Below are positions 23,712-33,966 of a stretch of DNA of 64,000 nucleotides, piece by piece. The position numbers were made by a program, and so were the translations under genes. The notes beneath the pieces are model-generated. The model ran no database searches. It was not told where the DNA came from and worked only from the letters and a program-made list of their open reading frames with translations. Position 1 is the first letter of the stretch. Each line of letters starts with the position of its first letter. Source of the stretch: Opitutaceae bacterium (GTDB lineage Bacteria > Verrucomicrobiota > Verrucomicrobiia > Opitutales > Opitutaceae); NCBI GenBank assembly GCA_014879845.1, contig JACSRI010000106.1, positions 1-64,000 of the forward strand, in the 5' to 3' direction.

Positions 23712-24074
23712 TCTACCTCACCCACCAACGAGGCCGCTGTAGTGGCGACTTCGATTACCTCACCCCAAGTATGAACAAAAACGTGAATACCCTGTTCTGT
23801 ACGCTCACGGGCGAATGGGCGAGAACGATACGAAGCCCGGAGTTGTATCAGGCGGCGGTCTCGGACGTCCGAAACTGGATGAAGTGATGCGCCATGCAAC
23901 CGCCCGAGCGTCGAGCGCCAGAGATTTCGCACTTCCTGTGAATGCAGCCGAACGATGCCGTCGCGCGAATCTCGCTCACATCGCGCTACCAAATGCGTTC
24001 ATACACTCCAGCGGCCGCACCTCCCCTTGGGGTGTTGTCGCAAGACACCAAGTAAGAACAACAACTCCCCAGCA
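23712..24074 (+). other. Long structured 5' leader of the 24075 gene
   Basis: No convincing gene occurs between the promoter module and the ATG. Near its end, 24031-24049 can form a hairpin (GGTG-TTG-TCG-CAA-GA-CACC). A CCCC-TT-GGGG palindrome lies directly before it, and CTCCCC near the start codon could pair with the same G-run. No Shine-Dalgarno sequence is evident. A regulatory leader is possible but unproven. Confidence 0.4.
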
Positions 24075-25454
24075 ATGAGCATGATCAAGAAAACAAAAGA
24101 ACAACTCGGCGCGGCGATTGCCGGCGCTTTCATGCCTGCACTGTCCACACATTCAACACTCGGTTGGATCAAGTCCCGACGCGGGGCAGGGTGGGCGGCG
24201 GCCCTGATGTTACTCCTGATGCCGCTGATGGCGTCGGCTGCTCCGAATCAATTCTTTGGTTCGTGCGCCGCCACAAGTTCCAATCTTACGGGCATCAATG
24301 CGAGGATCAGCCGCTTCACGTTGAACTGGCTATCGATGCAAGCGACCAATGGTGGCCCGATCGATTGGAACGCCGCAGGAAATCCTGCGACGGACGCCGT
24401 GATTGCCGCGCTCCTCGATGGTGGCAAGGATGTCGTGCTCGTCGCCGGTGCCCAATGGCCGGCATGGACAGGCAGCGACAGCACAACCCGTTCGGATCCT
24501 CCGACCGCCGCGCAAGTAGCTGCCTTCGCGAGGGCAGCAGCAGTGCACTATTACGGCCTGCGGAACAGGAGGATCTTTATGGAAATAATGAACGAGCCCA
24601 ATGTCACAATCGGCTGGGACTCGGCTTCCATTAGCCTCTACAAGAACATCCTTGCGCAATCGCGCAGCAGCATTCGCAGCGTTCTGACCTCCAGTCAGGT
24701 CACCATTCTTGGCGTTGTGCTAGCCGGCACACCTTGGATGCAGAATGCCAACGATGTCACCACGTTTTGGAACGGCGTCACCACCGGCACCAACCCTGTC
24801 CAAAACAACATGGATGTCATTTCATATCACGTCTATACCATCGACAGCGTTAATCGTCCGCCGGAGATCGGTCATGACCGGGGCGGACCGCTGCGCACCC
24901 GGCTCATCAACAGCCGTAATCTGATCCGAAATGTCGGCTTCAACGGCCCAATCTGGATCACCGAGGGAGGCTGGCCGACGCAGGCGGGGGAAAAGCCCCC
25001 GGTCACGGAGGCCCAACAGGCGCGTTGGATCGTGCGAATGGCCGTGATTTCGAAAGGCGAGGGGCTGAACCGGTTTCTCCAGTTTAGGTTTCAGGATACC
25101 GGCGTCCTCCATTACGGCCTGATTCGCTCCGACGGCACGCAAAAGCCATCCTATAGTGCCTATAGAACTCTCTGTGGTGTTCTGGACGACACCGCCGTCG
25201 GTCCTACAAACGTGACGTATAACCAGAACGGCCTCTGCCACTATCGCTACACGAAGCCCAACGGCGTCGTGGGTCACATTGTCTGGACTGTTACCGAAGG
25301 TAGTTCGGCACAAGTCGGCATCAGCGTAGGCACGAACCGCCCGGTTTATACCAAGGCCATGTCCCAACCCGGGGCATGGACCCCGCAGGGTGATCGAAGC
25401 GGGACCTACACGGTGACCGCCACTCCGAATCCAATGTATATCGAAGTACGCTGA
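24075..25454 (+). CDS. Secreted clan GH-A glycoside hydrolase-like protein
   Basis: The 459-residue protein has a long signal peptide (AALMLLLMPLMASAAP, cleavage near residue 56) and a (beta/alpha)8 domain. The acid/base Glu is in FMEIMNEPN (about residue 174) and the nucleophile Glu in IWITEGGWPT (about 297). The last 100 residues form a beta domain ending YTVTATPNPMYIEVR, matching the domain that ends VTVTDEPLYIEVR in the 1051-residue protein at 35481; the two are paralogues. A dyad promoter module lies about 400 bp upstream. I cannot assign a numbered GH family or substrate. Confidence 0.8.
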   Translation: MSMIKKTKEQLGAAIAGAFMPALSTHSTLGWIKSRRGAGWAAALMLLLMPLMASAAPNQFFGSCAATSSNLTGINARISRFTLNWLSMQATNGGPIDWNAAGNPATDAVIAALLDGGKDVVLVAGAQWPAWTGSDSTTRSDPPTAAQVAAFARAAAVHYYGLRNRRIFMEIMNEPNVTIGWDSASISLYKNILAQSRSSIRSVLTSSQVTILGVVLAGTPWMQNANDVTTFWNGVTTGTNPVQNNMDVISYHVYTIDSVNRPPEIGHDRGGPLRTRLINSRNLIRNVGFNGPIWITEGGWPTQAGEKPPVTEAQQARWIVRMAVISKGEGLNRFLQFRFQDTGVLHYGLIRSDGTQKPSYSAYRTLCGVLDDTAVGPTNVTYNQNGLCHYRYTKPNGVVGHIVWTVTEGSSAQVGISVGTNRPVYTKAMSQPGAWTPQGDRSGTYTVTATPNPMYIEVR

Positions 25455-25529: not shown

Positions 25530-26684
25530 ATGAATTCCGGGTCGCGAATTAGACGCCAGCCTCTGCTGATCACGGGGATTGTGGCAGTTTGTTGCCTCTG
25601 CAGCGGCGTGGCGATCTCGCGTCTGTTTAGGTGGAGCAACCACAGCCGACCGTTGGTTGTGGAGCGCACCGTTGCTGGGCCCGCGCAATCGGACCTGCTT
25701 TCGACCGGCGAAGCTGGTGACACGGCCGATCACATACATGGTTCTTCCGAAGCGCCTTGGGACGCTCACCTTCAGCCTGCGAGCGAAACCGATGGCGAGG
25801 TCCTCGCCACGCTGGCGGACGCGATTGCGGACCGCGAACTGGCCGCCGTGCTGCAAACGATGTCGCTGGCCGAGCTTCAGACAGAGTTTGGGCGCCGATT
25901 GTTTGATCGCTGGGTGGCGGTGGATCCGCGGGCTGCGACGCTGTGGGCGTGGAAGTGGAGCGACCGGACCATTCGCGAGGAACTGCTTCGCCTGGCGGTC
26001 GCGCGATGGGCGGAGGACGATCTAGCCGCTGCCGCGGCATGGGCCGAATCGCTTGCGCCCGAACTCGAGAGTCGTGAAGCCGCTCTGGCTATTGTGGGGT
26101 GGAGCGCGCACGAAGCACGGCCACAAGATGCCTTGCGGCTCGCTATGCATCTGGGTGACGAGAATCCCACGCTGGTTGCACTCGCCTCGGCCGCGGCAGC
26201 TTCTTGGGCGAACGTCGATCCCCTCGCGGCGTCAACCTGGGTTCACGGGCTGCCAGCGAATGAATTTCGCGACCGGCTGGCAGATGCTGTTGCGCGGTCA
26301 TGGGCGCTGTCGGACGCACAAGCCGCTCTGCGCTTCTTGTTCGAGAGCCTGCCCATTGGCGATACCCAAGTTCAGGCGGCCATTGAAATCGTGCAGCGGG
26401 CCGGGGCGTCTGCTTCGGGCCTTGTCGCGGCGATTCCCGAGAATGCGTTGCGTCACGAGGATCTCCGCTTCGTTGTTTCGCTTTGGAGCGCGAGCGATCC
26501 GACTGGGGCCGGCGATTGGCTGAACTCGCTCGAGTTGGGGCCAATACGCGACGAAGGTGTGGCTGCTCACGCGCGCGTCCTCGCAGGTCGCGGCGACCCC
26601 ACAGCGCGAGCGTGGGTGGAGAGTGTCGGGAACCCAACTCTGCGGGACCTAACGATGGAGTATGTCAGGGCACAATTGCGATGA
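25530..26684 (+). CDS. Membrane-anchored W/DP-repeat protein of unknown function
   Basis: The 384-residue protein has an N-terminal membrane segment (PLLITGIVAVCCLCSGVAIS, residues 11-30). A low-complexity linker follows, then seven or eight helical repeats of about 32 residues from residue 118 to 370. Repeat landmarks are Trp at 128, 160, 191, 226, 258 and 319 and DP-x-A-A-x-x-W patterns such as VDPRAATLWAW and SDPTGAGDWL. This is a TPR/HEAT-like solenoid of a kind common in Verrucomicrobia. The preferred start is the ATG at 25530. The gene is translationally coupled (ATGA) to the GH9 gene, so a scaffold or sensor role for that enzyme is possible, but no function is known. Confidence 0.75.
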   Translation: MNSGSRIRRQPLLITGIVAVCCLCSGVAISRLFRWSNHSRPLVVERTVAGPAQSDLLSTGEAGDTADHIHGSSEAPWDAHLQPASETDGEVLATLADAIADRELAAVLQTMSLAELQTEFGRRLFDRWVAVDPRAATLWAWKWSDRTIREELLRLAVARWAEDDLAAAAAWAESLAPELESREAALAIVGWSAHEARPQDALRLAMHLGDENPTLVALASAAAASWANVDPLAASTWVHGLPANEFRDRLADAVARSWALSDAQAALRFLFESLPIGDTQVQAAIEIVQRAGASASGLVAAIPENALRHEDLRFVVSLWSASDPTGAGDWLNSLELGPIRDEGVAAHARVLAGRGDPTARAWVESVGNPTLRDLTMEYVRAQLR

Positions 26685-29551
26685 TTCACGCGCCTTTGCT
26701 CCTCCTCCCGACGTATCGGCGGCTTATAGCGCTGGCCGCGTTGTTTTCCGCGGTCGTCAACTCTCCGGTTCACGCGGATGAATCGCTCGCGTTTCCGCTG
26801 AAGCTCTCGGAAGCCTCGGAAGAGGGCTCCGCTCGTCAGCGCTGGCTGGACAAGCCGGTGCAGCGCAGCGTGCCGATCGACGAGGTGGAGAGTCTCGCCG
26901 GCTGGGAGACGCGAGGTGTGGGAAAGATCGAACTCATCGCCGAGCGCGCCCGGTTCGGCAAGCATGCGCTGCGTTTTTCCGCGCCGATGTGGAATCGCGA
27001 ATTCTTCGAACACCGTACCGGTCCCAAGTTGTTCGGTACGACCGGCGGCGCGACTCAAGCCGTCCGGCTCTTCGCCCAGCCGCAGGACTGGTCCGCGTTC
27101 AACCGCCTTTCTGTGTGGATCTACGTCCACGACACCGGTCGGCGCACGTACAATGTCAGCCTCCTATTCACCTGCCTCGGCGTGCCGGAACGGACCACCG
27201 AGCCGTTCGCCGCGTTCAACGCCAACAGTCTGAAGCCTGGAGCGTGGCATCGCATCGTCTGGGAGATCCCGTACCTTAAGCGCGATCGGGTCACCGAGTT
27301 CATCGTGCATATCGAAACGTCGGGCTATGATTCGGACGCCCGCGGCGATCTGGTCGTCGATGTCGATCAGATCGAACTCCAGCAGGTCGAGGCCGATAAA
27401 TGGCAGGGGTGGGCGATCGAGCGTGATCGTATCGCGCTTTCTCAGATCGGTTATGCGCCGCACGCGCGAAAGGTGGCACTAATGAACCCTAATGAGGAGG
27501 CACGTTTCGAGGTGGTCGACGCGGAAACTGGAGAGTCGGTGCTCATCCGCCCGATCTCGACGACGGCAGTCAAGAAGACCGGTCGTTTTGCTGCGCTTGA
27601 TTTTTCCGACCTGCGAAAGCCGGGCGCGTACTTCCTCCGAGCCGGGTCGATCCGCTCGGACGCATTCGCGGTCGCGGACAGCTTTTGGCGGCCCGCTCTC
27701 ATCAAGGCGTTGAACTTCTTTTACTGCGAGCGCTGCGGTGTGGACATCGCGGGTGTTCACAATGCCTGCCACCACGATCTAACAGCCGAGGACGGGGGAG
27801 AAACGAAACCCATCTTCGGGGGCTGGCACGACGCCGCCGATTTTTCACAACTCACCGGCAACACGGCTGAGGCCGCCTACGCCATGCTCGAAATGGCGGG
27901 GCAGCTTCGCCTGCGCGATACCGATCACGAATTGCGGCAACGAATCGAGGAGGAATGTCGCGTCGGCCTCGACTGGCTGCGCAAGACGATCTTCGCGAGC
28001 GGCAAGCGGGTGCATTTCGTGGAGATCCGACACTTCAGCGACGGCGTGCCGAAAACCGGCGACGAGCGCAAGGGTACCGTCGGGCCGCACGCCCAGTTAA
28101 ACTTCATATGCGCTGCGACTCTGGCAAGGGCAGCGTCCTATTTCCAGCCGATCGATCCCGATTACGCGCAGGTCCTGCGCGAAACTGCGTTGCGCGATTG
28201 GCAATCCGGTGTGAGCACGAGTCCGGACCCCCGCACGGTGGCCCTCACCGAACTGTCATGGTCCGTTCTCGCTGGCATCCAGCTTGAGCGCCTCACCGGA
28301 GACCCGGCCTTCCGGACCGCGGCGGTTGAACGGGCGCACTATGCGATCGAATGTCAGGAGCGGACGTTCCCGGAAGGCGTGCCGTTGACGGGCTACTTCT
28401 ACAGCAAACCCGACCGGCAGCGGATTTCGCAGCCGGACCACATGTGCCACGACGAAGCGGCCTTGCTGGCGTTCGCCGCGCTCTGTTCTTCGTATCCGAG
28501 TCACCCTGACTGGATGCGCTGGTATTCGGCCGCAGCCATCTACGCCGAGTTCTTTCTCTCGCGGGGGGCGGACTACATGGCGCCGTTTCAATACCTGCCC
28601 AATGGAGTCTATCGGAAGAGCGATATCACCGCCCTTTCTGACGAGAAGGACCGTATCGACCAGCTTGAGCAATTGGAAGCCGGCACGCGGCTGACCGATG
28701 GCTACTACCTGCGCGCCCTTCCCATCTGGACATCTCCGTGGGCGCGAGGTGGCACTGGCATCCAGATGTCACGTACGGTCGCGCTGAGCGCGGCGGCGGG
28801 CCTCGCGAACGATCTGGGCGCCCAACAACTGGCGCGCTGGCAGATCGAGTGGGTTTTCGGGAGGAACCCGTTCACGACAAGTTTCATGTACGGAGTAGGC
28901 CACTACCAACCGATGCACAGCCACCGCCAGGGCGAGCTGATCGGGTCGCTTCCGGTCGGCATCGACTGCATGGGCGGCGACGAACCCTTTTGGCCCGGCG
29001 GCACGAACCACACCAACAAGGAGATTTGGGTCGTGCCGGTGGCCCGCTTCATCTGGAGCATGGCATCGCTGGCGCTTCCTGCGTACATCGAGGGAAGCAG
29101 CGAACGAACGTTGACTTTCATAGACAAAGCCGGCGGCCACGCAACCGCAGTCGATCCCGACGCCACAGGCCATTTTCGATGCAGTTTGCCGGCTGGAGAA
29201 TACGTGGTGCGCGCTGGCGATGACGAGTGGGAGACGCCCCTTGTTTCGGGTCGAAACTACCGATTCGACATGCGTGCGGGATGCGGGTGGAAGGCGCGCC
29301 TTTCTGTCTCGGGTGGGGACGGCTCTGGCAAAACACGGCGCCTGCAATTAAGCGTGACCGGGCGCGGAAGGCATTCGATCAGTCTTCATTTTTTCAACGC
29401 GCGATGCGACCAAGCCAGGCGCGAGATCACACTTGAGAGTGAGTCCACAGTTGAGTGGGAGATCGAGGTCATCGACCCGGCGCAACCTTGGGTGGCGGTC
29501 GTGATTCCCGAGGGAAACGCCGACCTGCGCCTTTCGGCCATCGGAAAGTAG
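26681..29551 (+). CDS. Secreted GH9-family endoglucanase-like protein
   Basis: The 956-residue protein has a signal peptide (residues 1-32) and a beta-sandwich carbohydrate-binding-like region (about 45-240). A CelD_N Ig-like domain follows (about 247-335, starting IALSQIGYAPHARKVAL), then a GH9 (alpha/alpha)6 domain (335-800) and a terminal beta domain. GGWHDAADFSQLTGNTAEAA is the GH9 water-binding Asp motif, normally DAGD and here DAAD. VFGRNPFTTSFMYGVG and NHTNKEIWVVP contain the C-terminal signatures with the catalytic Glu. GH9 enzymes invert beta-1,4-glucan or related linkages; substrates vary in this phylum. It overlaps the repeat-protein gene by 4 bp. Confidence 0.85.
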   Translation: MIHAPLLLLPTYRRLIALAALFSAVVNSPVHADESLAFPLKLSEASEEGSARQRWLDKPVQRSVPIDEVESLAGWETRGVGKIELIAERARFGKHALRFSAPMWNREFFEHRTGPKLFGTTGGATQAVRLFAQPQDWSAFNRLSVWIYVHDTGRRTYNVSLLFTCLGVPERTTEPFAAFNANSLKPGAWHRIVWEIPYLKRDRVTEFIVHIETSGYDSDARGDLVVDVDQIELQQVEADKWQGWAIERDRIALSQIGYAPHARKVALMNPNEEARFEVVDAETGESVLIRPISTTAVKKTGRFAALDFSDLRKPGAYFLRAGSIRSDAFAVADSFWRPALIKALNFFYCERCGVDIAGVHNACHHDLTAEDGGETKPIFGGWHDAADFSQLTGNTAEAAYAMLEMAGQLRLRDTDHELRQRIEEECRVGLDWLRKTIFASGKRVHFVEIRHFSDGVPKTGDERKGTVGPHAQLNFICAATLARAASYFQPIDPDYAQVLRETALRDWQSGVSTSPDPRTVALTELSWSVLAGIQLERLTGDPAFRTAAVERAHYAIECQERTFPEGVPLTGYFYSKPDRQRISQPDHMCHDEAALLAFAALCSSYPSHPDWMRWYSAAAIYAEFFLSRGADYMAPFQYLPNGVYRKSDITALSDEKDRIDQLEQLEAGTRLTDGYYLRALPIWTSPWARGGTGIQMSRTVALSAAAGLANDLGAQQLARWQIEWVFGRNPFTTSFMYGVGHYQPMHSHRQGELIGSLPVGIDCMGGDEPFWPGGTNHTNKEIWVVPVARFIWSMASLALPAYIEGSSERTLTFIDKAGGHATAVDPDATGHFRCSLPAGEYVVRAGDDEWETPLVSGRNYRFDMRAGCGWKARLSVSGGDGSGKTRRLQLSVTGRGRHSISLHFFNARCDQARREITLESESTVEWEIEVIDPAQPWVAVVIPEGNADLRLSAIGK

Positions 29552-29602: not shown

Positions 29603-29647
29603 CTACACGTTCGTGTTATGGCTGGCGTTTCGATCGAATGCTAGTCT
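29603..29647 (+). promoter_or_regulatory. Dyad promoter module, copy 2 (upstream of 29701 hydrolase)
   Basis: CTACACGTTCGTGTTATGGC (29603-29622) contains a clean ACACG/CGTGT dyad. The hexamer TAGTCT begins 19 nt later at 29642. The expected transcript would start near 29654, giving a leader of about 47 nt before the ATG at 29701. This is the shortest leader of the five copies. Confidence 0.65.
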
Positions 29648-29700
29648 GGGCAACTCCAGATCCGCCGCCCGATCCAAGCAGGCGCGGCGGCACGAACTTC

Positions 29701-31191
29701 ATGACTACCCCATTTCGCTATTTTCAGTCGTCCACCGTGGCGCTGCTGGTCGCCTGTGCGTCAACAGCGAGCGCGGAATCGATCGCGATCGATTTTGGCA
29801 AGCAAACGACGGAAAGCTCATATCTGCTTTTCGGTGGGTGTTCGCCGAATCCGGATCACGCCGCGGTTTGGGACACGCTCGCGGCGGCGGGCATCACGAT
29901 ACTGCGCTTCGACGTGAAACTCGGCGTCTGGCCGGACCCGAAGGATATTACGCTCGAAGCCTACAAGGCCGCCATCGGGATCAAGGCCAGCGTCGCCGAT
30001 ATCAATAGCTGGCACTGGGACTGGTCGCGCTTCGAGCGTACGCTTGCGATCTGCGAGGCACGTGGAATCGAGACGATGAGCATACTCAACTACTGTCCCA
30101 AGTGGTTGAGTTACTCCGGGGACTCGCAGTCTCCCCCGAGGGATTTCGCAGTGTGGGAGGACATCGTTCAGCAGATCGTTCGTCGCTACGAGGGAAGAAT
30201 CGATTTCTGGGAAATCTGGAACGAGCCCAACGGCCCGAGTTTCATGAACCTTGAGGGCAGCCCGTATCCTAAAGACAAAGATGGAATGCTGGCTGCGTAC
30301 ATCGACATCTGTCGCCACACGATCGACGCGGTCCGCAAGTCGGGCGTGAAAGCTCGTCTTGGCGGGCCGGCGCTCGCGACGTGGAACTCTGCTCCCTTCT
30401 TCGACAAGTTTCTCGCTCATTCCGACGTGGTCGAGAATCTGGAGTTCCTTTCCCACCACATCTATTTCCACGCGCCGATTGCGAATCGCTGCCTGCCGCC
30501 GGCCATCTACGAGATGGAAAGGAAGAACCTCGTGGGTCCGCTGCCGCTGTACATCACCGAGTGGAACGCCAAGTCGAGCGTGGACTCGACGCAATTTGAG
30601 TTAAAGAACAGTCCCGCCGCCGTCGGTTGGGCGGGGAAGGCCTTTGTCTTATTTTTGCAGTGGGGAGTGCGCGGTGCGACCTTCTACAACTTCCACGAGG
30701 GTCGAGAACTCGATGATCGTTATGGTGGCGCCTACGTCGTGGTCGACGGGCGTCCGAAACTGTTCCGTTTCGTCAAGGTCTTCCACCTGCTATCGAAGGT
30801 GCTTGGTCTCGGCGATCCCAAGGGCGAGATCAAGGTCTTCGACAGCCGGGTGGCGGGCTTGGCGGACGAGATGACGCTTGAGCCGCACGCGCTTGATTCA
30901 CTCTACGCGGTGGGCTGCGTGAATGCCCAGGACACGCCAGTCGTCATCGTCGCCAATTCATCGGATGTTGAGCGCGTTGCAGACATCGCTATCGCAAACT
31001 TGGCGGACGCCTCTTATCAGGTGAGGGCTTTCGTGGTGCGGCCCGATCACACTCCGGAGGAGGCGATCGTTCCAACGCCGCTTTTTGAGCGCACAGTCGT
31101 CGCGAAGGCCGGGCAGCTTCTCCTCCAGTTTCCCGTGGGGGCACACAGCGTGATCGGGCTGCGCATCGAACGTGCCGCCTCCGGATTGTGA
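29701..31191 (+). CDS. Secreted clan GH-A (GH39-like) glycoside hydrolase
   Basis: The 496-residue protein has a signal peptide (STVALLVACASTASA) and a catalytic barrel with SWHWDWSRFERTLAICEARG, an acid/base Glu in WEIWNEPNG (about residue 174) and a nucleophile Glu in LYITEWNAKS (about 284). A C-terminal beta domain follows (about 400-496). The pattern resembles GH39 beta-xylosidases and related enzymes. The ATG at 29701 was chosen over the open frame from 29638 because it starts the signal peptide and lies downstream of the promoter module. It is probably periplasmic or secreted. Confidence 0.82.
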   Translation: MTTPFRYFQSSTVALLVACASTASAESIAIDFGKQTTESSYLLFGGCSPNPDHAAVWDTLAAAGITILRFDVKLGVWPDPKDITLEAYKAAIGIKASVADINSWHWDWSRFERTLAICEARGIETMSILNYCPKWLSYSGDSQSPPRDFAVWEDIVQQIVRRYEGRIDFWEIWNEPNGPSFMNLEGSPYPKDKDGMLAAYIDICRHTIDAVRKSGVKARLGGPALATWNSAPFFDKFLAHSDVVENLEFLSHHIYFHAPIANRCLPPAIYEMERKNLVGPLPLYITEWNAKSSVDSTQFELKNSPAAVGWAGKAFVLFLQWGVRGATFYNFHEGRELDDRYGGAYVVVDGRPKLFRFVKVFHLLSKVLGLGDPKGEIKVFDSRVAGLADEMTLEPHALDSLYAVGCVNAQDTPVVIVANSSDVERVADIAIANLADASYQVRAFVVRPDHTPEEAIVPTPLFERTVVAKAGQLLLQFPVGAHSVIGLRIERAASGL

Positions 31192-31231
31192 GAGGCCGGG
31201 GATGAAAGGCAGTCTCTTTCAGGAGAATCGC

Positions 31232-32641
31232 ATGGCCGACCAAGAGACCTGTTCTATCGGTGGTGATCTCGCTTGCGTTCCCGCGTTGAACGCGCGGCTG
31301 GGACCGGGATGCGTTCTGACGGGCGCCGAGGATGTGATTCCGTATGGATTCGATGCCACGGCAGCCCTCAAGCAACGCCCGGGAGCGGTCGTTTTTCCAA
31401 AGACGACGTCGGAGGTGGTGGACATTGTCGAAATTGCGCGACGCCACCGCACACCGATTATTACGCGCGGATCTGGGACTGGGTTGAGCGGCGGCAGTGT
31501 GCCAGTTGAGAACTCGATCGTGATGTGTCTGCTCGGAATGAATCGCATTCTGGAGCTGGATACACGCAATCTCACCCTGCTCGTCGAGGCCGGTGTCGTG
31601 ACGCAGGATATCTTCAATCAGGCGGACGCAGCGGGGCTGCTCTACCCTCCCGATCCGAGTTCGATGAAGGTCAGCACCATCGGAGGCAATGTTGCCGAGA
31701 ACTCCGGCGGATTGCGCGGACTCAAATATGGCGTCACGCGCGACTACGTGATGGGCCTCGAAGTCGTGCTGGCCGACGGCTCTGTCTGCTGGCTAGGCAA
31801 CAAGTGCGTGAAGGATGTCGCCGGCTACAACCTGCGCGACCTGTTCATCGGCAGTGAAGGAACACTGGGGATCATCACGAAGGTGCTGCTCAAGCTCCTT
31901 CCGAAACCTGCGGCGCGCCGCACGCTGCTCGCCACGTTCGGGCGGATGGACGCCGCGGCGGAGACAGTATCGGCGATCATCGAGGCAAAGATCATCCCCT
32001 GCACGCTCGAGTTTCTCGATCGGAAAACCATTCATTGCGTCGAAGATTATGCCCGCGTCGGGCTGCCGCTCGATGCCGAAGCACTGCTCTTGATCGAGAG
32101 TGACGGCCACCCGGCGGCGGTGGAGGACGATGTCACGCGGATCGCCGCGCTCGCGCGTCGGCATGGAGCGATCGAAGTGAATTGTGCTCGCGATGCCGTC
32201 GAGGCCGCCCAATTGGCCACCGCCCGTCGCAGCGCCTTCTCCGCACTCGCGCGGTTGAAACCGACGACAATTCTCGAGGATGCGACGGTGCCACGGAGCG
32301 AACTCGCCAACATGATTCGCTCCATTCAGGAGGTGGCGCAACGCCATGGCCTCGATGTGGCCACATTTGGGCATTTCGGCGACGGCAACCTTCATCCCAC
32401 GTTTCTCACCAACGAGCGAGATGCCGACGAGATGCGTCGAGTGGAGCTGGCGATGGGCGAGATCTTCGAGAGGGCGTGCGAATTCGGTGGCACCATCACC
32501 GGGGAGCACGGAGTCGGTTTGGCGAAGAAACCGTTTTTGCGACGCCAGCTCGGAAACGCGAGTTACGCGTTATTGAAGGCGATCAAGCGCACGCTCGACC
32601 CCGACGGACTGCTCAATCCCGGAAAGGTGGTCGACGCATGA
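31232..32641 (+). CDS. FAD-linked oxidase, GlcD/D-lactate dehydrogenase type
   Basis: The 469-residue protein has the PCMH FAD-binding fold: RTPIITRGSGTGLSGGSVP, PPDPSSMKVSTIGGNVAENSG and DLFIGSEGTLGIIT. The C-terminal cap contains FGHFGDGNLHPTF and GEHGVGLAKKPFL. The start at 31232 is set by AGGAG at 31221-31225, six nt upstream; an earlier ATG at 31202 lacks such a site. Its stop overlaps the start of the Fe-S partner gene. Enzymes of this type oxidise glycolate, D-lactate or other 2-hydroxy acids at the membrane. A role in clearing lactate or glycolate made from deoxy-sugar breakdown fits the locus. Confidence 0.88.
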   Translation: MADQETCSIGGDLACVPALNARLGPGCVLTGAEDVIPYGFDATAALKQRPGAVVFPKTTSEVVDIVEIARRHRTPIITRGSGTGLSGGSVPVENSIVMCLLGMNRILELDTRNLTLLVEAGVVTQDIFNQADAAGLLYPPDPSSMKVSTIGGNVAENSGGLRGLKYGVTRDYVMGLEVVLADGSVCWLGNKCVKDVAGYNLRDLFIGSEGTLGIITKVLLKLLPKPAARRTLLATFGRMDAAAETVSAIIEAKIIPCTLEFLDRKTIHCVEDYARVGLPLDAEALLLIESDGHPAAVEDDVTRIAALARRHGAIEVNCARDAVEAAQLATARRSAFSALARLKPTTILEDATVPRSELANMIRSIQEVAQRHGLDVATFGHFGDGNLHPTFLTNERDADEMRRVELAMGEIFERACEFGGTITGEHGVGLAKKPFLRRQLGNASYALLKAIKRTLDPDGLLNPGKVVDA

Positions 32642-33966
32642 GTCCGCTCGCACTCCTGCAAGCGTTGGACTATTCGGTTCTGCAACAGTGCATGCATTGC
32701 GGCATGTGCCTGCCAGTGTGTCCTACTTACGCGGAGACAGGCAAGGAGCGAAACTCCCCGCGTGGACGCATCGCACTGATGCGCGCGGTGGCCGATGGGG
32801 ATCTCTCCACGACCCGGGCGTTCGCGGATGAAATGAGTTATTGCCTGGGCTGCCTTGCCTGCACGAGCGCGTGCCCCGCCGGAGTGGATTACGCGCACCT
32901 TCTTGAAATCGCGCGGACCCATGTGGAGGAGAGTGCAGTCAACGCCACGCGCACGCGCAACCTTGTGCGTCGGCTCACGATGCGGTGGCTCTTCACGCGC
33001 CCGGGCGTGCTGCGAATGGCGGGCAGGCTGCTGTGGTTCTGGCAGCGAAGCGGGCTGGACACGCTGTCGCGTCGCTTCTGGCTCACCCATCTGCTGCCGC
33101 GCCGCCTGCGCGAACTTGAACCAAACACTCCGCGGATTCAGTGGCGGTTCTCCGACGAACTCATCGCTCGCAATGAGCCGGCCGTCGGGAAAACGCGCCA
33201 TCGCGTAGCGATGCTCACCGGATGCGTGCAGGACCTCGTGTTTTCCGATGTCAATAGGGCGACGGTCGATGTGCTGCGTGAAAACGGCTGTGAGGTATTC
33301 ACGCCGCGTCGACAGCACTGCTGTGGCTCGCTGCACGCCCACAACGGCGACCTCGAAACTGCGAGGTTCCTGGCGCGACGCCAGTTGGATGCCATCGATC
33401 CGACCAAGTACGACGCGATCATCTCCAATGCGGGCGGGTGTGGGTCGCACCTGAAGCACTACAACCGGCTCCTCGCGGACGATCCGGATTACGCGGGCCG
33501 GGCCGAAGTTTGGTCGCGGAAACTGCGCGACATCTTGGAATGGCTGGTCGAGATCGGATTCCGCGAGCCACGGAATGATGCCGGGGGCGTCCTGCCCGTG
33601 ACGTATCACGAGGCCTGCCACCTGTGCCACGGTCAGAAAGTCTCGGCGCAGCCGCGCGAGATTCTGCGGTCTATCCCGGGAATCGAGCTGGTCGAACTCA
33701 AGGAAGCGACTTGGTGCTGCGGCAGCGCCGGCATCTATACGATAACGCAGCCGGATACGGCCGCGCGATTGCAGCAGCGCAAGCTGGAGCATCTTCGCGC
33801 GAGTGGTGCCGGGGTTGTCGCAACGGCTAATCCGGGCTGCCATCTGCACATTCAGAACGGCTTTCGCGCCGCAGATGGCCGCGCGCCCCGTGTTGTGCAT
33901 CCGGTGGTCTTGCTGGCTGAAGCGTACCGGGCCGAGCGCGATAGCGTATCGCGACAATCGAACTGA
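32638..33966 (+). CDS. Fe-S oxidoreductase subunit, GlcF type
   Basis: The 442-residue protein has two 4Fe-4S motifs near the N-terminus (CMHCGMCLPVCP and CLGCLACTSACP). It also has two CCG domains with HCCGSLHAHNGD and WCCGSAGIYT. This is the composition of GlcF and related subunits that take electrons from a GlcD-like flavoprotein and pass them to the respiratory chain. It overlaps the GlcD-like gene by 4 bp. No GlcE gene is present beside them, so the pair is a two-subunit form, as seen for several D-lactate dehydrogenases. Confidence 0.88.
   Translation: MSPLALLQALDYSVLQQCMHCGMCLPVCPTYAETGKERNSPRGRIALMRAVADGDLSTTRAFADEMSYCLGCLACTSACPAGVDYAHLLEIARTHVEESAVNATRTRNLVRRLTMRWLFTRPGVLRMAGRLLWFWQRSGLDTLSRRFWLTHLLPRRLRELEPNTPRIQWRFSDELIARNEPAVGKTRHRVAMLTGCVQDLVFSDVNRATVDVLRENGCEVFTPRRQHCCGSLHAHNGDLETARFLARRQLDAIDPTKYDAIISNAGGCGSHLKHYNRLLADDPDYAGRAEVWSRKLRDILEWLVEIGFREPRNDAGGVLPVTYHEACHLCHGQKVSAQPREILRSIPGIELVELKEATWCCGSAGIYTITQPDTAARLQQRKLEHLRASGAGVVATANPGCHLHIQNGFRAADGRAPRVVHPVVLLAEAYRAERDSVSRQSN

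Follow-up and report, generated by a model that had tools for sequence, protein, structure and literature searches.

The closest described systems to the one treated here are membrane-anchored helpers encoded beside the exported proteins they serve. The lipase foldase Lif is anchored in the membrane, carries a linker that prevents its co-secretion, shares an operon with its client and folds this client in the periplasm (PMC13381987). A study on Acinetobacter delimited a class of membrane-bound type II chaperones by two traits, a membrane helix at the N-terminus and an operon shared with a type II substrate; its putative cases in Acinetobacter, Burkholderia and Vibrio include one beside a pectinacetylesterase (PMC4713064, Table 1). 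CpaB, reported with an SRPBCC-type domain, is needed for the secretion of its neighbour (PMC4713064). We compared with these systems a gene for a protein of tryptophan-marked repeats (W-repeat or repeat gene, 25530-26684, + strand, ATG at 25530, 384 aa) in a window of 64,000 nucleotides, positions 1-64,000 of the forward strand of contig JACSRI010000106.1 (assembly GCA_014879845.1, Opitutaceae bacterium). The first-pass annotation had described a membrane-anchored protein with Trp-marked repeats of about 32 residues whose gene overlaps that of a secreted glycoside hydrolase of family 9 (GH9). Both features were borne out: the period is 32 residues, residues 12-36 are predicted to form a membrane helix, and the two genes share the 4 nt ATGA of start and stop codon (26681-26684, + strand). 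The recurrent neighbour of the relatives is, however, a different one.

Short repeat genes are very probably associated in a recurrent manner with secreted polysaccharide-degrading enzymes in the bacterial family of the window. A first sample consisted of 60 short repeat genes (at most 560 residues) that were picked from the window and 60 fetched stretches by score and length and not by genomic context. For 36 of them a same-strand upstream open reading frame (ORF) was present within 400 nt. Of these ORFs, 31 were scanned with Pfam and five were not, namely three that encode repeat proteins and two of 94 and 188 aa. Glycoside hydrolase, polysaccharide lyase (PL), GDSL-type esterase or carbohydrate-binding families above the cut-off were counted as positive. 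Fifteen of the 31 directly upstream genes encoded such enzymes, in comparison to 1/30 controls (Fisher 4.6e-5). The controls, taken from the stretches of the sample, were genes upstream of other genes that lie three or more genes away from any repeat gene, with a minimum length of 150 residues and a gap of at most 400 nt; 30 of 55 candidates were scanned in shuffled order, and a sulfatase and a DUF1080 protein among them were not counted. Six suggestive genes of the first sample were also left uncounted, coding for a beta-helix protein, a LamG protein, a beta-helix protein with LamG, a ricin-type lectin, a DUF1080 protein and a protein with CBM35 just below the cut-off. The ten other upstream genes encoded two MFS transporters, a nuclease, a VPDSG-CTERM protein, a beta-lactamase, a glycosyltransferase, a TonB plug below the cut-off and three proteins without match.

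A follow-up covered 20 stretches, 18 obtained with profiles of two clades and two with the search of a 13-row profile. Nine of the 20 upstream genes were scanned and six were enzymes (two GH53, two GH5, one GH16, one apiosidase-like; Fisher 1.7e-4); one downstream gene, scanned as well, was a GH5. The 11 unscanned cases comprised three contig ends, two upstream ORFs on the opposite strand and six same-strand ORFs that were left out (stretch L133, a near copy; short ORFs in L142, L148 and L144; a small one in L143; a response-regulator-like one, judged by eye, in L146). The pooled frequency was 21/40 versus 1/30 (p 4.7e-6), or versus a lenient control count of 3/30 (p 1.7e-4). Many repeat-gene copies were present in genome G121, an Opitutia metagenome-assembled genome (JANYBX01, 100 % match); without it, 14/31 remained (p 1.2e-4). 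Counting the unscanned same-strand ORFs as misses yielded 15/36 and 6/15, pooled 21/51 (p 9.7e-5; 2.3e-3 versus 3/30). The 21 positives came from 12 genomes and 10 genera; their median gap was 75 nt. Partner families were GH53, GH16, GH5, PL9, PL11 and others; PL7 and PL9 denote the alginate lyase and Pel9A-like families. Thus the link to a secreted enzyme, which the first-pass annotation had deduced from the gene overlap, is supported for secreted carbohydrate-active enzymes (CAZymes) as a group, but not for GH9 as a recurring partner. Since the usual partner is located upstream, the partner in the window is probably the enzyme encoded at 23955-25454 rather than, or as well as, the GH9 enzyme. 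By position, this upstream GH5/GH39-like enzyme is the most likely client of the window's repeat protein, and GH9 possibly another.

The partner type follows the tree of the repeat proteins and is in this sense co-inherited. The careful tree comprised 68 rows, after 12 of 80 had been dropped, mostly long branches and including that of stretch L095 with an alginate lyase as partner. Thirty rows bore partner labels, 16 different ones, and these required 16 changes on the tree versus a mean of 23.6 after shuffling, a value as low being reached in 0/500 shuffles; the labels of L143 and L144 were assigned by eye from their relative L079. The repeat proteins of the GH53 pairs from genomes G121, G218 and G219 formed a clade (100/100), and two more GH53 partners of G121 were placed just outside it within the same clade of 8 rows. 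An enzyme-linked clade included the window protein in a quick tree (approximate likelihood-ratio support SH-aLRT 99), but not in the careful tree, and this placement is not claimed. As a separate observation, the enzymes upstream of one W-repeat clade (L091, L092, L134-L136, L138) carry DUF1349 domains, some also Golvesin_C, CBM96 or LamG.

The repeat protein is a member of an unnamed family without a Pfam or NCBIfam model. Neither database matched the window protein, and NCBIfam matched none of four family members. Pfam yielded for 40 aligned relatives a few weak matches to five unrelated families (best ELYS, 5.7e-4, 2 members), and neither PPR nor TPR was detected in 40 members at E 0.01. 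No description of the family or of its enzyme pairing was found in the literature, with subscription journals mostly outside the coverage. The family is spread across the Verrucomicrobiota: a 40-row profile matched 66/288 genomes of the phylum at 1e-15, covering 47/152 genera, and the 13-row profile matched 55/100 genomes of the window's bacterial family at 1e-8. Among the matches listed was no other genome of the window's genus, and close relatives of the window protein were found neither in plasmids (tblastn) nor in the named genome collection (peptide patterns).

In the window protein, lag 32 was the top value of the BLOSUM autocorrelation, equalled in 0/2000 shuffles. Trp spacings in relatives were 11, 21 and 32, so the period is common to the window protein and its relatives. 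The AlphaFold model, calculated with 40 relatives, had a mean confidence (predicted local distance difference test, pLDDT) of 78.6 and a predicted template modelling score (pTM) of 0.65. It consists of the anchor helix at residues 12-36 (codons 25563-25637, + strand), a linker at residues 37-85 (25638-25784, +), of which 37-83 are predicted as disordered with pLDDT <50, and an alpha-solenoid of 32-residue helix pairs at residues 86-384 (25785-26681, +); PPR-like solenoids top the list in structure comparison. The solenoid had 20 helices within residues 86-383, a weak stretch at ~271-310, and the model no strand. A second model, for the repeat protein of a GH53 pair (13 rows), reached a mean of 85.4, with the solenoid mostly >92, a long disordered N-terminal part and an anchor helix of low confidence. 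Disordered linker and solenoid are thus common to both models, a confident anchor helix is present in the window model only. Among the short family members, 89/102 had a hydrophobic N-terminal segment; the charge was higher before than after this segment in 62/89, equal in 18/89 and lower in 9/89. Their linkers are abundant in small and polar residues. By prediction, these are single-pass inner-membrane proteins with a periplasmic, PPR/TPR-like alpha-solenoid of 32-residue Trp-marked helix pairs.

The anatomy resembles that of Lif in the single N-terminal membrane helix, the disordered linker and the predicted extracytoplasmic domain (PMC13381987, PMC4713064). Linkers of Lif proteins usually have 30-55 residues (PMC13381987), that of the repeat protein has 47, and both genes adjoin that of a secreted enzyme, for Lif the client, with a small gap or overlap. 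Unlike Lif, the repeat protein is predicted as a regular 32-residue solenoid, and its partners are polysaccharide-degrading enzymes of many families. The extracytoplasmic domain of Lif is all-helical. The lipase-chaperone family of Pfam was not detected in 40 members at E 0.01, and the Lif signature RXXFDY(F/C)L(S/T)A, as given in PMC13381987, was present in 0/111 repeat proteins, the window's included. Hence the repeat proteins perhaps work like Lif or CpaB without being members of these families. The likeness to the CpaB class is one of anatomy only, in that an ORF without assigned function codes for a membrane helix at the N-terminus and adjoins the gene of a secreted enzyme; the class itself requires a type II substrate, and CpaB differs by its reported SRPBCC-type domain (PMC4713064).

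With regard to the fold, a profile search of the PDB matched designer PPR proteins (6een, 5.7e-16). In VIA-align, the best designer PPR protein had Z 9.4 for the window model (root-mean-square deviation, rmsd, 12.8 over 261 residues) and Z 10.0 for the GH53-pair model (rmsd 19.5 over 306), with top rows of any kind at Z 10.2 and 10.8, respectively. PPR-type chains at Z ~9-10 were prominent among the best rows, values that are common for helical repeats and may reflect a common arrangement only. Foldseek gave no match at E 0.001 or better for either model. A lipase foldase was absent from the structure-comparison rows listed, which excludes nothing. PPR and TPR units have 34-35 residues. The repeat protein is likewise predicted as a helix-pair solenoid, but with a 32-residue unit marked by Trp, DP and AA, without a Pfam match to either family, and predicted to be exported rather than RNA-binding. 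The membrane-coat-like proteins of Planctomycetes, Verrucomicrobia and Chlamydiae combine a beta-propeller with helical repeats (PMC2799638); they share with the repeat protein a helical-repeat domain and the superphylum, whereas the strand-free model lacks a part of the beta-propeller type.

The first-pass annotation had offered scaffold, chaperone or sensor as roles; sequence does not separate these, and a chaperone or escort fits best. We put a probability of roughly 45 % on a dedicated periplasmic escort or foldase for the neighbouring secreted enzyme, a reading by analogy to the systems above. The enzyme would be exported through the inner membrane and captured there by the tethered solenoid, which would aid its folding or maintain its competence for the next export step before releasing it. 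The membrane anchor would prevent co-secretion of the helper. Alginate lyases have been suggested to leave the cell by type II export in one alginate degrader of the Opitutales (PMC13274419). Four secretin matches were present in the window's genome, but no link between them and the repeat genes was found.

Several observations weigh against such an escort or foldase. In a pattern search, pseudopilin-like genes were not enriched near repeat genes (1/96 at position -1, 0/99 at +1). Some relatives adjoin MFS transporters, a beta-lactamase or a glycosyltransferase, and for many others the neighbour is unrelated or lies on the opposite strand. A repeat gene was located within ~1.5 kb at 0/30 GH53 loci (one per genome); the GH53 genes with a repeat gene were three others of G121 and those of G218 and G219. 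Outside the window's bacterial family, seven scanned upstream genes included neither a GH nor a PL. In the tree, thinning of repeated partners, mostly from the same genus, left 22 rows with 16 changes versus 18.2 after shuffling (8/500), and the window protein is a long branch without a supported clade in the careful tree. Gene prediction relied on a simple in-house script, and individual upstream ORFs may be wrong.

Next to the escort or foldase, the alternative that fares best is a tether or scaffold, a solenoid which, as part of a working complex in the periplasm or at the membrane, would hold one or several finished enzymes instead of aiding folding or export. Gene pairing and predicted architecture also fit this role, and jelly-roll or carbohydrate-binding domains (DUF1349, LamG, CBM6/35) at the end of several upstream enzymes may be able to dock. 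These terminal domains vary between clades, however, and the upstream enzyme of the window has none by Pfam. We regard a tether as possible, but doubtful. A sensor or regulator that reads the level of enzyme or sugar with its periplasmic solenoid and signals across the membrane is unlikely. In its favour is one natural fusion (L090:8729-10819, - strand) of a sigma-70-like N-terminus, recognized by eye, with a membrane segment and W-repeats. In alignments of 13 and 26 rows, however, little sequence precedes the anchor in most of the short proteins, which leaves no room for a cytoplasmic output domain. On the same stretch, a second W-repeat gene (L090:7348-8697) directly follows the fusion gene.

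Slightly less probable than a sensor is a passenger role, in which repeat genes are merely located in CAZyme-rich islands. Several stretches are indeed rich in CAZymes, and the lack of repeat genes at the 30 GH53 loci fits as well. The positions around 79 repeat genes were scanned by homology with 38 queries (CAZymes and four beta-helix, LamG or CBM35 proteins) at a lenient setting, own-locus matches being excluded. Same-strand CAZyme-like genes were present at 25/48 positions -1, 10/44 positions -2, 7/40 positions +1, 3/35 positions +2 and 9/128 positions at a distance of 3-5 genes. The raised value at -2 would suit an island, but the enrichment peaks at -1 and drops at distance 3-5 (p 2.5e-10 for -1 versus distance 3-5). 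Without the richest genome, 17/39 were observed at -1. The scan favours -1, because most queries are -1 genes themselves; the 13 queries that are not still peaked there, with 12/48 at -1, 8/44 at -2 and 5/40 at +1, so the direction was kept, though flatter. Finally, all 25 CAZyme-like -1 genes were on the same strand as the repeat gene, which argues against a passenger.

A GH9-specific partner, for which the start/stop overlap at 26681-26684 speaks, is highly improbable, as none of 101 other repeat-gene stretches (99 distinct) contained a GH9, and none of 37 other GH9 loci (32 distinct genes) a repeat gene. The first set was searched with a GH9 profile, which detected GH9 in the window only; L153 repeats L066, and L133 nearly repeats L082. 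The second set derives from 38 GH9 loci, a subset of the GH9 places listed, with 33 distinct genes, five being duplicated; repeat profiles applied to ~1.5 kb on each side found a repeat gene at the window's own locus only. Even in the window's genome, a repeat gene adjoins one of four GH9 genes. The conservation of the GH9 pair across genomes that had been proposed for checking was thus not observed: what was found is the outcome named beforehand as refuting a GH9-specific coupling, a repeat gene without a recurring link to GH9, and as a recurring partner GH9 is largely refuted by the 99 stretches and 32 other genes.

In the window, the GH9 gene extends from 26681 to 29551 (+ strand, ATG at 26681, 956 aa). 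Pfam identified CelD_N at ~27425-27655 (PF02927, 2.8e-12, 47.7 bits, cut-off 24.6) and the GH9 domain at ~27695-28933 (PF00759, 1.2e-24, 87.9 bits, cut-off 27.7). The N-terminus is signal-peptide-like as judged by eye, and the closest GH9 relative in the PDB is 5u2o (2.6e-16). The aspartates of HDAADF (383-388) and Glu 781 in NKEIW, located by motif, are candidates for the catalytic residues. Relatives of this GH9 were found in 1/38 genomes, its own, at E 1e-30, and in 6/150 including its own at 1e-15. The secreted GH5/GH39-like enzyme gene (23955-25454, +) ends 75 nt before the repeat gene; its GH5 match in Pfam (6.7e-7) is above the cut-off, its matches to GH39-type enzymes and mannanases in the PDB are weak (best 0.0021), and an in-frame ATG at 24075 possibly is the true start. 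Downstream of GH9, the same gene run continues with a GH39-like gene (29638-31191, +; PF01229, 2.8e-8). A FAD-linked oxidase gene and its probable GlcF-like partner, recognized by eye, occupy 31172-33966, flanked by glycoside-hydrolase-like genes.

Outside the window's bacterial family, 20 stretches with 22 repeat genes were inspected. The seven scanned upstream genes were chosen as long or secreted-looking, so that no rate can be given: two encoded secretins (one genus), two proteins with a weak trypsin match and TSP3 repeats, one a LamG/glucose dehydrogenase-like protein, one a sulfatase and one a protein without match. Several other upstream genes appeared housekeeping-like by eye. At the level of a hint, the theme may be wider and comprise exported proteins, among which CAZymes would be the local case. 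Two genomes of one genus showed the order secretin, W-repeat gene and a TatC-like gene, the latter recognized by eye (L157:3631-9176, L163:5837-11567). Tandem W-repeat genes with a 4-nt overlap followed large secreted-looking proteins (weak trypsin match, TSP3; MAM in L170) in L168:5754-11163 and L170:6573-12423. Among the stretches from the window's own bacterial family, three genomes of one genus (L079, L143, L144) have a small ORF that stops 2-3 nt short of the W-repeat gene and is VPDSG-CTERM by Pfam in L079; a LepA-like gene, judged by eye, is next.

Verrucomicrobiota are described as polysaccharide degraders; on enzyme export and folding in this phylum we found little in the literature. 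As a tentative generalization, less probable than the escort or foldase itself, the phylum may possess its own tethered solenoid foldases or escorts, one per exported enzyme, for pectin lyases, galactanases, glucanases and perhaps nucleases and proteases. The principle of one enzyme and one foldase, known from lipases, would then be generalized by a new repeat family. On the practical side, standard hosts that lack the partner may be poor at folding such enzymes. That an undescribed, predicted membrane solenoid recurs beside secreted enzymes and is conserved with them by lineage offers a direct entry to the question whether such enzymes need dedicated helpers.

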